From: Kiritimatiellota bacterium
GTDB taxonomy: Bacteria; Verrucomicrobiota; Kiritimatiellia; Kiritimatiellales; Tichowtungiaceae
Assembly (NCBI GenBank): GCA_014381785.1
Contig: JACNKZ010000061.1
Coordinates: 1 to 33,745 of the forward strand
Direction: 5' to 3'
DNA: 33,745 nucleotides
In this document: positions 122 to 33,487 of the stretch, piece by piece
How positions within the stretch are numbered: position 1 is the stretch's first letter
Layout of the letters: each line of letters opens with the position of its first letter
Notes under the pieces: generated by a model
Seen by the model: the letters and a program-made list of their open reading frames with translations, nothing else
Told to the model about the DNA's origin: nothing
Databases searched by the model: none
Position numbers and translations under genes: made by a program

Positions 122-853
122 TTACATACTGAACCGCGGACCCAAATAGAGCTCCCGGCTCACCTCATCGTTTACGAGGAAAGAGCTGGCTCCTTCGCGC
201 AGCACTTTCCCTTCGCACATGAGATAGGCCCGATCCACCACCGCCAGCGTCTCGCGGACGTTATGGTCGGTAATCAGGACTCCGAGGCCTTTCTCGCGAA
301 GCTCTTTGATAATCTCCTGCACCTCATAAACCGCGAGGGGGTCGACCCCGCTGAACGGCTCATCGAGCAGAATGAGTGACGGGTTGGTGACCAGCGCACG
401 GGTAATCTCGAGCCGGCGGCGTTCACCGCCGGAGAGTGTATACGCTCGTTGCTTGGCCAGATGGGAAATTTTCAATTCATTGAGCAGAAACTCCAGCCGT
501 TCGCGACGCTCGCGGCGGGAAATCGGCAGGGTTTCCAGAATGGCCATCACGTTTTCCTGCACCGTGAGTTTTCGGAAAATGGAAGGCTCCTGCGAAAGGT
601 AGCCCATCCCCATGCGGGCGCGCTGATACATCGGCACCTTGGACACATTGCGATCCTTAAAATAGACCTGTCCGGCCGTCGGATGAATCAGACCGGTTAC
701 CATATAAAATGTGGTGGTTTTTCCAGCACCGTTGGGACCGAGCAGTCCCACAATCTCGCCGGGACGCACGTTCACATCCACTTCGTTAACCACTTTTTTG
801 CCGCGATAGCTCTTCACGAGTTTTTCAGTGCGAACCAAATATTTTTCGTCCAT
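122..853 (-). CDS. lptB: LPS export ABC transporter ATP-binding protein LptB
   Basis: Cytoplasmic ATPase of the LptB2FGC complex that extracts LPS from the inner membrane. From the start at 853 it has 243 residues, close to E. coli LptB (241). Visible motifs are Walker A GPNGAGKT (about residues 39-46), a Q-loop around SQEPSIFRKL, the LSGGERRR signature, Walker B LILLDEP followed by FSGVDP, and the H-loop ITDHNVRETL, the last being very typical of LptB. An upstream in-frame ATG at 889 would overlap the previous gene by 35 bp; the ATG at 853 lies one base after that gene's stop with a GAG-type ribosome site, so I prefer it. Part of the Kdo/Lpt operon. Confidence 0.96.
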   Translation of the reverse strand: MDEKYLVRTEKLVKSYRGKKVVNEVDVNVRPGEIVGLLGPNGAGKTTTFYMVTGLIHPTAGQVYFKDRNVSKVPMYQRARMGMGYLSQEPSIFRKLTVQENVMAILETLPISRRERRERLEFLLNELKISHLAKQRAYTLSGGERRRLEITRALVTNPSLILLDEPFSGVDPLAVYEVQEIIKELREKGLGVLITDHNVRETLAVVDRAYLMCEGKVLREGASSFLVNDEVSRELYLGPRFSM

Positions 854-854
854 G

Positions 855-1718
855 TTAATTCTCAAAAATGTCGGTTTTAAATTTCTCATCGGGATAAATC
901 ACCACTCTGGCTGCGGGCTCGCAGATCATCCGTCCTGTCTCCCGCCAGAACCGGATTTTTTCGCCAAACAGCATATTCTTTCCTTGCACCAGTTTGGGGT
1001 GATCTTCGAGCAGAAATTCATCGGTTGTCACATCATAAACGGCCTTGCCGGCATACGCTTCCCGTCCTTCATGCAGGATTCTAACGTCGCTCAGCGCCTC
1101 TATCCAGTCAATTTCATTGTTTTCACTGAACCGCAGTTCCAGCGAACCGGAATCCAGTTGCATCTCAGAGTCCTCAACGTGCACCGAGTCAACAAAGCGG
1201 GCGCTTTTCCCGTCGTAGTTTAGAAAAAGCTGTTTCGAGGTAATCTCCGTAACATTGGTAACGGCGGAGTTCGCCGCCTCCGCATTCAGACCGGTCTGCT
1301 GCATGATATCTTCAATCACCACACAGCTCTCATCCAGCACATGAACGGTGCGCTCGCGCGCATCCATCACATAGCCGATGCCGGTCAGATGAACCCCCTC
1401 CATATCCGCGCGGATCGGCGCATCCGAATGAGCCACACGTTTTTTCTGATCATAAAAAGAGTATGGGGAAGCCACCTCCATAAACGTTTCGCCGTCACGG
1501 TAGAATTCAACGCGTACGCCATTCAGCCTCACCATGCCGTCCGAGCCCAGCTCTGCATAATCGCCAAAAAGCTGCGAGGTCATCTGCCCCTGGTCGTCAT
1601 ACTCCGGCACACGGAAACCGGAGATTTCCATACCCGGTTCCTGCGCATTCGCACAGAACGCCGTTAACATCGCCAGCACGGCCACCCCGAATCCCAAATC
1701 CTGAATCCCGAATCTCAT
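855..1718 (-). CDS. LptC-LptA fusion: periplasmic LPS transport protein
   Basis: A 287-residue exported protein. Residues 1-25 look like a signal peptide with an ANA|Q cleavage site. Residues about 30-135 resemble LptC (GFRVPEYDDQGQMTSQLFGDYAEL, then VRLNGVRVEFY), and about 158-278 resemble the LptA/OstA beta-jellyroll (SKQLFLNYDGKSARF, AYAGKAVYDVTTDEF). The gene sits directly upstream of lptB, where E. coli has separate lptC and lptA, so it likely supplies both the membrane-side and bridge modules. The ATG at 1718 has a GAGGTG ribosome site inside the end of kdsA. The first codons are made of a 7-bp repeat (GATTCGG type) that also occurs elsewhere in the window; see findings. The two-domain reading rests on my recall of the families, not on a search. 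Confidence 0.8.
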   Translation of the reverse strand: MRFGIQDLGFGVAVLAMLTAFCANAQEPGMEISGFRVPEYDDQGQMTSQLFGDYAELGSDGMVRLNGVRVEFYRDGETFMEVASPYSFYDQKKRVAHSDAPIRADMEGVHLTGIGYVMDARERTVHVLDESCVVIEDIMQQTGLNAEAANSAVTNVTEITSKQLFLNYDGKSARFVDSVHVEDSEMQLDSGSLELRFSENNEIDWIEALSDVRILHEGREAYAGKAVYDVTTDEFLLEDHPKLVQGKNMLFGEKIRFWRETGRMICEPAARVVIYPDEKFKTDIFEN

Positions 1719-1720
1719 GC

Positions 1721-2536
1721 TTATTTCACCTCATCAATCGCGTTTAGTTTTTTCCAAAGGCTGGAAAGATCCTTCAGCGGAATCATATTCGGACCATCGG
1801 AGAGCGCCGTCGACGGATCGGGGTGCGTTTCAATGAACATGCCATCCACGCCGACCGCCGCGGCGGCCTTCGCCAGATACGGCGCAAAGCGTCCGTCGCC
1901 GCCGGAGGTGTCGCCCTGCCCGCCGGGCGACTGCACAGAATGCGTCGCATCAAAAATGACCGGATAGCCCATCTCGCGCATGATGATCAGGCTGCGCATA
2001 TCCGCCACCAGTGTGTTGTAGCCGAAGCTCGCGCCGCGCTCGGTGAGCAGTATCTTCGTGTTGCCGGTCGATTCGATTTTTTTGACCACGTTCGCCATGT
2101 CCCACGGCGCGGCAAACTGCGCCTTCTTCACATTCACCACGGCGCCGCTTTCGCCGGCGGCCACCACAAAATCTGTCTGACGAATCATAAAGGCGGGCAG
2201 CTGGATGATGTCGACCACTTTGGAGGCAATGTGAATCTCTTCCACGCTGTGCACATCGGTCAACACCGGCACATTATATTTCTCTTTAATCTCCGCCAGA
2301 ATTTCGAGCCCCTTGGCAATGCCCGGCCCGCGGTAGGAATTGATGGAGGTACGGTTGGCTTTGTCGTACGACGCCTTGAACACCAACGGGATGCCTTGGC
2401 GTTTCGCCAGCTTCACCAGCTTGTCGGCAATCGCCATGCAGCCCTCACGGCTTTCAATCACACACGGCCCGGCAATCAGCGCCAGCGGATTCTTCCCGCC
2501 AAACTTCACACCTTTTACATTGATCGTCTTAGTCAT
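1721..2536 (-). CDS. kdsA: 3-deoxy-8-phosphooctulonate synthase (KdsA)
   Basis: Condenses phosphoenolpyruvate with arabinose 5-phosphate to Kdo 8-phosphate, the first committed step towards the LPS inner-core sugar Kdo. The 271-residue product has the family's full length and hallmark stretches: LIAGPCVIES near the N-terminus, FKASYDKANRTS, the RGPG loop, TDVHSVEE, QLPAFMIRQTD, KKAQFAAPWDM, LTERGASFGYN, FDATHSVQSPGG and FIETHPDPS. The start codon overlaps the stop of kdsB by 8 bp (ATGACTAA), so the two are probably translationally coupled. Followed after 2 bp by the LptC-LptA fusion. Confidence 0.97.
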   Translation of the reverse strand: MTKTINVKGVKFGGKNPLALIAGPCVIESREGCMAIADKLVKLAKRQGIPLVFKASYDKANRTSINSYRGPGIAKGLEILAEIKEKYNVPVLTDVHSVEEIHIASKVVDIIQLPAFMIRQTDFVVAAGESGAVVNVKKAQFAAPWDMANVVKKIESTGNTKILLTERGASFGYNTLVADMRSLIIMREMGYPVIFDATHSVQSPGGQGDTSGGDGRFAPYLAKAAAAVGVDGMFIETHPDPSTALSDGPNMIPLKDLSSLWKKLNAIDEVK

Positions 2537-15144: not shown

Positions 15145-16248
15145 ATGAAAGCAATTGCTTATTACATTACCGCCCACGGATACGGCCACGGAACGCGCTC
15201 GTGCGATGTGCTTCGTGCGCTCGAGCGTCTCGCGCCGCAGCAGCCCGTCATCGTCACCACCGACCTGCCGCGCGACTTTCTCGACAGCCGGCTCAAGGGT
15301 TGCAAGAACATCACCTTCCGCACCGGCGCGTTTGATGTCGGCCTCGTCCAGAAAGATTCCATTCATGCCGACCTTTTCCAAACCTTGGAAAAACTGGAGG
15401 AACTCTACGCCCGTGAAGAACAGCTGATTGCCCAGGAACGGCTCTTCATTCAGCACGAAGACATCGGACTGGTTGTCGCCGACATTCCGGCCATCCCGCT
15501 CGCCGCCGCGCAGCGCAGCGGCATCCCCAACGTCGCCATCGGTAACTTTTCGTGGGACTGGATCTATGCCGCCTACGCCAAAACCGATCTGCACTGGGAA
15601 TACTTCGTCGAAAAATTCCGCGCGGTTTATGAACAGACCGACCTGCTGCTGCGCCTGCCCTTCGCCCCGCCGATGGAACAGTTCCCAAAACGAAAGGATG
15701 TTCCGCTTCTGGCAAGCCCCGGCACGCCGTGCCGGGAAAAGATTCGGGATTTGGGATTCGAGATTCGTGATTCAGCACCTGCCAGCAATAAACCGTGGGT
15801 CTTGTTGTCGTTCACCTCTCTCGGTCTAAATTACAAAGCATTGGAAAATATCCGCAAACTGAGTGATGACTATGAATTCTTCTGCGTCGATCCGTTGGAG
15901 TTTCCCATGTCATGCATCCATTCGATAAGTCGAGACAATGTCTCGTTTGCGGACGTCATCGCTTCGTGCGACATTGTCATCAGCAAACCGGGCTTTGGAC
16001 TGGTTTCGGAGTGCATTGTGAACAACAAGCCGCTGATTTACTCCGACCGCAGCGACTTCGCCGAATATCCCTTCCTCGTCGACGGCATCAAGAACTATCT
16101 CAAAAACGTCCACCTGCCTTCCGAACAGCTCTACGCCGGAGACTTGTCCCAGGCATTGGAAAAAATAAAAACCGCGCCGCAACCCGACGGCTTCATCAGG
16201 CGCAGCGGCGCGGAAATGATCGCCGAAGAACTGCTGGCTCTCAGATAA
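15145..16248 (+). CDS. GT-B-fold glycosyltransferase-like protein with an in-frame repeat
   Basis: A 367-residue cytoplasmic protein. The N-terminus AYYITAHGYGHGTRSCDVL is like the donor/acceptor loop of MurG-type GT-B enzymes, and the C-terminal domain has SKPGFGLVSECIVNNKPLIY and the RSDFAEYPFLVDG segment seen in GT28-like C-terminal domains. The substrate is unknown. Residues about 199-210 (KIRDLGFEIRDS) are encoded by five copies of a 7-bp repeat preceded by a CCCGGCAC/GTGCCGGG hairpin, placed between the two lobes, where homologs would have a variable linker. A perfect palindrome (15376-15390) is read as F-Q-T-L-E. The gene is isolated, with repeat elements on both sides. No clear ribosome site. 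Confidence 0.75.
   Translation: MKAIAYYITAHGYGHGTRSCDVLRALERLAPQQPVIVTTDLPRDFLDSRLKGCKNITFRTGAFDVGLVQKDSIHADLFQTLEKLEELYAREEQLIAQERLFIQHEDIGLVVADIPAIPLAAAQRSGIPNVAIGNFSWDWIYAAYAKTDLHWEYFVEKFRAVYEQTDLLLRLPFAPPMEQFPKRKDVPLLASPGTPCREKIRDLGFEIRDSAPASNKPWVLLSFTSLGLNYKALENIRKLSDDYEFFCVDPLEFPMSCIHSISRDNVSFADVIASCDIVISKPGFGLVSECIVNNKPLIYSDRSDFAEYPFLVDGIKNYLKNVHLPSEQLYAGDLSQALEKIKTAPQPDGFIRRSGAEMIAEELLALR
15376..15390. repeat. Iterated palindrome TTCCAA-ACC-TTGGAA (inside glycosyltransferase gene)
   Basis: Perfect copy in coding DNA, read as F-Q-T-L-E. Confidence 0.85.
15718..15774 (+). repeat. Hairpin plus 7-bp tandem repeat inside a reading frame
   Basis: CCCGGCAC-GCC-GTGCCGGG at 15718-15736 is followed by five 7-bp units at 15740-15774: AGATTCG, GGATTTG, GGATTCG, AGATTCG, TGATTCA. 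The same unit occurs at about 1688-1716 and 32148-32224. Confidence 0.8.
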
Positions 16249-32147: not shown

Positions 32148-32224
32148 AATCCCGCACCTCGCATCCCGAATCTCATATCCCGCACCCCGCATCCCGAATC
32201 TCGCATCCTGCATCTCGTATCCCC
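32148..32224. repeat. Intergenic 7-bp tandem array (NAYCYCG units)
   Basis: Eleven 7-bp units in a row: AATCCCG, CACCTCG, CATCCCG, AATCTCA, TATCCCG, CACCCCG, CATCCCG, AATCTCG, CATCCTG, CATCTCG, TATCCCC. It ends at the stop codon of the integrase gene. The reverse complement is the unit found inside the genes at 855-1718 and 15145-16248. Confidence 0.88.
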
Positions 32225-33487
32225 CTATAACGTATCAAGAGGGCTTTGAGGCCGTGCGCTCATGGTGCGCACCACATGGGTGTAGATCATCGTCGTGTCG
32301 ACACTTTTGTGGCCGAGCAACTCCTGTACCTCGCGGATGTTCACCCCCTGCATCAGCAGATGAGTCGCGAAACTGTGGCGCAACGTATGAATCGTCACGT
32401 GCTTGGCAATATCCGCAACAGAAACCGCATTTCTAATCGCAGTCTGCATGATGGTCTCGCTTACGTGATGACGGCGGGTTTTCCCGCTCTCCGGGTCTAC
32501 CGACAGATTTTTCGCCGGAAAGACATACTGCCAGCCCCACTCCTTCGGGGCTTTGGGATACTTTCTGGCAAGCGCATTCGGCAGCCACACCGCGCCAGCC
32601 CCCTTTTCGAGATCCGCCGCGTGCAAGGCGCGCACGCGCTCCAAATGGGCTTTCAAATCCGGCATCAAACTGGCGGGAAGAATGGTCGACCGGTCCTTGT
32701 CTCCCTTACCGGAACGAACCGAAAGAACCCCACTGTCAAAATCCAGATCCTTCACGCGAAGGCGGATTGTCTCAGACACACGGAGGCCTGCACCGTAGGT
32801 CAGTCGCAGCATCAGGCCGGCCGTTCCTTCTGCGGCGGACAGCAACCGTCCCGTCTCTTCAACCGAAAGGACAACCGGCAACTTCGGCCCGCGCTTTGCC
32901 CGCACCGAGTTAATCTCGGGCAAATCCACTCTTAATGTTTCACGAAACAGGAATAGGACAGAATTAAAGGCCTGATTCTGCGTCGAAGATGCCACATTTC
33001 GCTGGGTTGCCAGATAAGAGAGGTAGGCCCGCACCGTATCTGGCGAGTTCCATTCCAGCTTATGGCCTTTGGCATACCGAAAATAACGATCCACCCACCC
33101 TGTATACGTTTCCAGAGTTTTAGGCGAATAATGGCGCAGCTTTAACAGTTCCTTCATCTGTCGCATGGCTTGTTGACTATCCGACAGCAAAAGCTCCCGT
33201 TTTGGATTTTCCGGCTCAGCAATTCCCTGCTTTGCGGGCAAATAAACATTCAGGTAAAGCTCCACCGCCTTCATGGCCTGCCGCAATTGCCAGTCTTGTA
33301 CTGAATCATCGCGGGCTAATTGATCGGAGAAGCACTGTAGCAAATCACTTTCAGACAAGTGCGCCCGGTCGAATTCTGAACGCAGAAAGCGTAAAATCCA
33401 GTTGATGTAATACGGAAGGTGCTCATTATTCACCAGATTCCGACTGCGCACAAAATCCTCAAACGGTTCCAAATCAATATATTGCAC
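32225..33487 (-). CDS. Integron integrase (IntI-type tyrosine recombinase) with N-terminal extension
   Basis: A 420-residue recombinase. Catalytic residues: R236 in YGAGLRVSE, H367 and R370 in HTLRHSFATHLL, H393 in LGHKSVDTT and the nucleophile Y402 in IYTHV. The IntI-specific extra domain is clear at about 287-340 (ALHAADLEKGAGAV, LPNALARKYPKAPKEWGWQYVFPA region, then SGKTRRHHV). IntI1 has 337 residues; the extra length here is an N-terminal helical region (about 1-100) that looks like another core-binding-like unit before the usual one (LRHYSPKTLETYTGWVDRYF). The start is GTG at 33487 with an excellent GGGGAGG 6 bp upstream. In integrons cassettes lie on the upstream side, here beyond the right window edge. 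Confidence 0.9.
   Translation of the reverse strand: MQYIDLEPFEDFVRSRNLVNNEHLPYYINWILRFLRSEFDRAHLSESDLLQCFSDQLARDDSVQDWQLRQAMKAVELYLNVYLPAKQGIAEPENPKRELLLSDSQQAMRQMKELLKLRHYSPKTLETYTGWVDRYFRYAKGHKLEWNSPDTVRAYLSYLATQRNVASSTQNQAFNSVLFLFRETLRVDLPEINSVRAKRGPKLPVVLSVEETGRLLSAAEGTAGLMLRLTYGAGLRVSETIRLRVKDLDFDSGVLSVRSGKGDKDRSTILPASLMPDLKAHLERVRALHAADLEKGAGAVWLPNALARKYPKAPKEWGWQYVFPAKNLSVDPESGKTRRHHVSETIMQTAIRNAVSVADIAKHVTIHTLRHSFATHLLMQGVNIREVQELLGHKSVDTTMIYTHVVRTMSARPQSPLDTL

Follow-up and report, generated by a model that had tools for sequence, protein, structure and literature searches.

Degenerate 7-bp tandem repeats at the starts of lptC-lptA and other exported-protein genes in a Kiritimatiellota genus

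How does a tandem repeat whose unit is not a multiple of three come to encode the first residues of a lipopolysaccharide (LPS) transport protein? The question is raised by the window analyzed here, a stretch of 33,745 nt from a Kiritimatiellota bacterium (contig JACNKZ010000061.1). A preliminary description of this DNA had noted a four-unit 7-bp repeat directly after the ATG of lptC-lptA. The features of the window that bear on the question are as follows.

122..889, minus strand: lptB-type ABC ATPase gene, downstream in the lptC-lptA operon
855..1718, minus strand: lptC-lptA fusion gene, with ATG at 1718-1716, n-region from the array, h-region VAVLAMLTAFC and a likely SPase I site between ANA and Q
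1686..1715, minus strand: heptad array of four units (AGATTCG GGATTCA GGATTTG GGATTCG) plus 2 nt, encoding RFGIQDLGFG
1721..2536, minus strand: kdsA, whose stop codon lies 2 nt ahead of the lptC-lptA start
1726..1732, minus strand: Shine-Dalgarno sequence GAGGTGA, within the end of kdsA
15741..15773, plus strand: GGATTCG-type heptad array, in frame within a glycosyltransferase gene (15145-16248)
32149..32223, minus strand: intergenic heptad array of 75 bp, adjoining the 3' end of a tyrosine integrase gene (32225-33487, minus strand)

The four-unit repeat is exact as described, its bases matching the minus strand at 1715-1688. Behind the ATG (1718-1716) come AGATTCG (1715-1709), GGATTCA (1708-1702), GGATTTG (1701-1695) and GGATTCG (1694-1688), and TRF reports the array at 1686-1714 with a period of 7, 4.1 copies and 81% matches. 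The lag-7 score in the 240 nt around the lptC start is 14, which none of 1000 dinucleotide shuffles reaches, and the other lags from 3 to 12 score at most 8 in the same 240 nt. The window as a whole has three lag-7 arrays with a score of at least 14, against a shuffle mean of 0.015 and a maximum of 1 in 200 shuffles. The shuffles and the control lags rule out chance or codon bias as the source of the array. The single heptamer GGATTCG is not over-represented in the window (5 found versus 9 expected), and the signal of the lptC array is one of tandem order, not of heptamer abundance. Since 7 is 1 modulo 3, any forward frame of a heptad array gives the same cyclic peptide; with a unit length that three does not divide, the array cannot owe its existence to selection for amino-acid repeats and is a feature of the DNA level. 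The preliminary description had also likened RFGIQDLGF to a peptide of the glycosyltransferase by way of the repeat, and KIRDLGFEIRD is indeed read in frame at 15741-15773. Adjacent units of the lptC array in the window genome (G000) are never identical, and a search near the array for an inverted heptad partner found none.

The gene carries the Pfam domains LptC (PF06835) and LptD_N (PF03968, OstA-like), both above cut-off, and stands in an operon with lptB, as expected of an LptC/LptA gene; the order kdsA-lptCA-lptB is common to the genus. Its product begins MRFGIQDLGFG-VAVLAMLTAFCANA-QEPG, in which the array-coded n-region is followed by a hydrophobic core and then by A-x-A ahead of Q, and in relatives a comparable site of small residues precedes Q or E. 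On the strength of its hydrophobic core and A-x-A motif the protein is predicted to have a signal peptide, and signal peptidase probably cleaves off the array-coded n-region together with the rest of the leader. The proposal that the repeat supplies the n-region of this predicted signal sequence is supported, MRFGIQDLGFG lying before the hydrophobic core. The array is read in frame, and no stop codon arises in it. The ribosome site placed just upstream by the preliminary description is found as GAGGTGA at 1732-1726, 7 nt complementary to what we take to be the 16S tail. It is retained in nearly all orthologs with a visible kdsA end, and reads GAGGTAA in G008.

We compared the window genome with 13 relatives of the same genus, one genome per species. 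All 14 genomes have lptC-lptA, and the 5' end is visible in 12, G004 and G006 being left out for lack of it. A heptad array lies directly behind the lptC start in 5 of these 12 (G000, G002, G007, G008 and, in the kdsA-proximal copy, G012; lag-7 p ≤ 0.003 each), none is found there in 6 (G001, G003, G005, G009, G010 and G013), and that of G011 is weak. The lag-7 values of G009 (p = 0.02) and G003 (p = 0.05) arise from a stretch of the conserved mature part and not from the bases behind the lptC start. The units are GGATTCG in G000, RGTGTCG in G002 and G007, and of the GGATGCG/GGATACG types in G008 and G012, so that the comparison of sister species suggested in the preliminary description yields recurring arrays of differing units. 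The first bases of the array are common to G002 and G007, and these two arrays therefore probably go back to one event. In a protein tree of kdsA, lptCA and lptB, G000 pairs with the array-free G001, and the two n-regions (M-RFGIQDLGFG-VAV versus M-NSFAFSNVWK-VAV) have an equal length of 10 residues and unrelated sequence. The array-free n-regions of G001, G005, G010 and G013 look alike (F..WK-like), a shared look which suggests that they are the older form. Conservation of the G000 N-terminus in species lacking the repeat, an observation that the preliminary description had named as speaking against its reading, was not seen: most relatives align from about residue 11-20 on. G012 has two tandem lptC-lptA copies (loci L045 and L042), with the heptad start only in the copy adjoining kdsA. 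At the same junction of kdsA and lptC, G009 (locus L028) carries an extra stretch of some 100 nt that is unrelated.

Other leaders show the same arrangement. The DUF1573 protein of G000 (locus L066, 5793-6194) starts MKLETRNLKLG-TTALLLLLFP, and its n-region is coded by TGAAACT heptads. DUF1573 orthologs occur in 13 of the 14 genomes, G005 having no match; with G006 also left out, 12 were examined, and 3 of them have arrays, with different units at the same place: TGAAACT in G000, GATATTC in G003 and ATTACGC in G012. The array of G001 is weak, and the remaining eight genomes show none that exceeds the threshold. Two type II/IV pilin-like proteins of G003, one of which matches T2SSG, have a heptad-coded leader before GFTLIE, and further genes with leader arrays encode an iron-sulfur membrane protein, a BatD-like protein, TPR proteins and a collagen-repeat protein. 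In two of the cases, a lipoprotein-like one of G001 and the BatD-like one of G013, array and hydrophobic core overlap, and masking the array-coded residues takes these two out of the leader class. The DNA polymerase III alpha gene (locus L068, 10032-10065) also seems to begin with C-rich heptads, with a GTG start possible behind them.

We surveyed gene starts in stretches of six genomes (1704 genes, 2.30 Mb), leaving out genes shorter than 240 nt and genes cut off by a contig edge. Starts were taken from a home-made Markov caller and leaders from a hydrophobicity rule, not a trained signal-peptide predictor. Arrays lie within the first 75 nt of 10/434 signal-peptide/TM-like genes versus 2/1270 others (Fisher p = 4e-5); the cases are few and not independent, with lptC counted in two species, and both the 75-nt length and the hydrophobicity cut-off were set with lptC and DUF1573 already known. 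The excess persists without lptC (8/432 versus 2/1270, p = 4e-4), with array-coded residues masked for the leader classing (8/432 versus 4/1272, p = 0.003) and with each of five genomes left out in turn (p = 1e-4 to 1.6e-3). The first half of the survey gives 8/274 versus 1/846; the second half alone is not significant (2/146 versus 1/408, p = 0.17). The G000 contigs came mostly from an earlier array search, which may raise array density and should not favor one gene class. Control lags 5, 8, 10 and 11 show no excess in the starts of signal-peptide/TM-like genes, and the upstream 75 nt show no bias (8/434 signal-peptide/TM-like versus 31/1270 others), 4 of the 31 upstream arrays of the latter class being possible in-frame extensions. 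By midpoint, signal-peptide genes have 9 arrays upstream and 9 inside, versus 35 upstream and 2 inside for the others (p = 3e-4).

Heptads are the dominant short period in the G000 sample: its 702 kb contain 73 lag-7 arrays, versus 25, 16, 9, 4, 4 and 0 arrays for lags 8, 6, 10, 5, 13 and 11. By place, 20 of the 73 are intergenic, 19 lie at gene ends, 6 at gene starts and 28 within called genes. Some of the mid-gene cases of G000 were compared with Pfam domains, and the following lie between domains.

Locus L067, 17785-17931, in frame: MutL linker array, residues 353-402; the flanking domains end at 321 and start at 402
Locus L073, 16547-16713, in frame: linker array of a UvrD/PD-(D/E)XK helicase-nuclease, residues 834-890; the flanking domains end at 800 and start at 885
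Locus L078, 16552-16709, in frame: linker array of a 2-oxoacid dehydrogenase E2 acyltransferase, residues 73-126; the flanking domains end at 74 and start at 137

Against linker placement stand an array of RecO inside the matched domain and one of a glycosyltransferase inside the matched stretch. On balance, the mid-gene arrays support a sieve by which arrays persist where the protein sequence is free. Beyond the genus, 16 of the 116 genomes scanned across the class for one unit family contain exact four-unit arrays, a patchy distribution. Two further features of the arrays were observed. Sixteen of the 73 G000 arrays have, at most 100 nt away, a heptad partner in inverted orientation with which they could form hairpins, for example:

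Locus L072, 7943-8029: array with inverted partner
Locus L075, 8546-8648: array with inverted partner
Locus L078, 16552-16709: array with inverted partner (the E2 linker array above)
Locus L093, 15833-15967: array with inverted partner

In addition, the long heptad arrays at loci L093 (14373-14461) and L102 (12164-12217) are nearly perfect, the rest being degenerate.

Heptameric bacterial repeats are already known. G-rich heptads have been described in Xanthomonas (GGGAATC) and Nostoc (GGGGA(C/T)T), and the same report places them mainly between genes, found no role for them and cites slippage or local duplication as a hypothesis for their origin (Rehm et al., 2015; PMC4692102). The arrays studied here share with them the 7-bp tandem unit, the short and degenerate form with about four units per array, the genome-wide spread and a constant gene context in which length and sequence vary among related species; unlike them, the units here are far more varied and arrays also occur in coding DNA, namely at export leaders and linkers. 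The lptC array contains no GGGAATC, the Xanthomonas definition, its unit GGGATTC fitting just the looser GGGANTN, and with G-tracts of GGG, GG, GGG and GGGG it lacks the four intact ones of a quadruplex-capable array. Genes of Rickettsia carry in-frame palindromic elements, and these are alike in being repeat DNA tolerated in frame within coding genes; the heptads differ in having no fixed palindrome, an inverted partner being confined to 16 of 73 arrays and absent at lptC. In Neisseria opa genes, CTCTT repeats in the leader switch expression by slippage (PMC3960869). At lptC, too, a non-triplet tandem repeat is translated within the leader peptide, but here the units are degenerate, the unit type differs among species and the genes are mostly housekeeping genes; the lptC array does not consist of identical, slippage-prone units. 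The literature searched yielded no paper on heptads at export leaders or on heptads of Kiritimatiellota, nor one that describes this coding niche.

We think it probable that fast-changing genome-wide heptads are excluded from most coding DNA and tolerated where sequence is free, as in cleaved leaders and inter-domain linkers. The genus would carry a large, fast-changing stock of tandem 7-bp repeats with many unit types, born and reshaped by local events, most likely replication slippage and duplication, and selection would keep the bulk of coding DNA clear of them. Where kdsA and lptC closely adjoin, one such array may have replaced the older n-region directly behind the lptC start codon; translated in frame, it would form a short n-region ahead of the conserved hydrophobic core and would probably be lost with the leader via signal peptidase. 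Arrays could survive neutrally in this way since n-regions, prepilin leaders and flexible inter-domain linkers would accept almost any sequence. The single case of the preliminary description has thus become a pattern repeated across genes and species, for which tolerance, with no special role of the repeat, is the simplest reading. The 5 of 12 at lptC exceed the overall rate of about 2% for such genes, and tolerance by itself may therefore fall short as an explanation. Shared descent of the G002 and G007 arrays accounts for part of the recurrence at lptC; what tolerance does not fully explain at lptC and DUF1573 may come from arrays that last long and have their sequence rewritten, or from a preference for the site behind the start codon.

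A rival reading is targeted placement, in which some process favors the stretch behind exported-protein starts or selection favors repeat-coded n-regions. Of the 12 N-terminal arrays, 10 have their first base at most 6 nt from that of the start codon, and the lptC and DUF1573 sites are used repeatedly in sister species with differing units. We nevertheless judge targeting improbable: the equal shares of upstream and leader arrays in signal-peptide genes (9 versus 9 by midpoint) fit tolerance, and arrays also lie in linkers and intergenic DNA. The G-runs on the sense strand (GGG, GG, GGG, GGGG) invite another reading, namely a quadruplex or hairpin in mRNA or DNA that tunes lptC expression, and related G3N4 heptads form quadruplexes in vitro (PMC4692102). 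It is very unlikely here, as just three runs reach 3 G or more, arrays at other leaders are A/T- or C-rich, and ordinary RNA folding over the lptC start, a model outside which quadruplexes fall, is no better than that of shuffles (z = -0.54 and 0.74).

Two rivals concern how the array is read. Translation could begin downstream of it, at GTG codon 12 or 14 or at ATG codon 17, which would make the array a 5' leader only, and homology to most relatives does begin near residue 11 or later. This start is highly unlikely. By a simple score, ATG 1718 is alone among the candidate starts up to codon 17 in having a Shine-Dalgarno match, and a strong one, whereas TTG, GTG, GTG and ATG at codons 8, 12, 14 and 17 score zero; a start after the repeat, the other observation that the preliminary description had set against its reading, thus finds no such match. 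Moreover, no charged n-region would remain, and relatives carry an n-region behind the same ribosome site. The least probable reading, and a barely credible one, is a phase-variation switch in which a gain or loss of units alters the reading frame, switching lptC-lptA between on and off; the non-triplet unit in a leader-coding stretch resembles opa (PMC3960869). The lptC array of G000 has no identical neighboring units, however, which should make slippage slow. LPS transport, the function of the gene, is usually indispensable, and the leaders involved belong to type II pseudopilins, DUF1573 and TPR proteins, not to surface antigens as a class.

Tolerance of heptads in free protein sequence would make these arrays a natural test of the freedom of signal-peptide n-regions and linkers, with unrelated heptads having taken their place in housekeeping genes. 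It would also mean that bacterial repeats of a class that has drawn little study shape proteins, and peptides such as IxDLGF that are common to unrelated proteins can stem from DNA repeats, not from homology. It is conceivable, though doubtful, that heptads act as a standing generator of export leaders, arising again and again behind start codons and overwriting n-regions and prepilin leaders with new sequence, in which case a repeat process, not point mutation, would drive leader evolution in this lineage.
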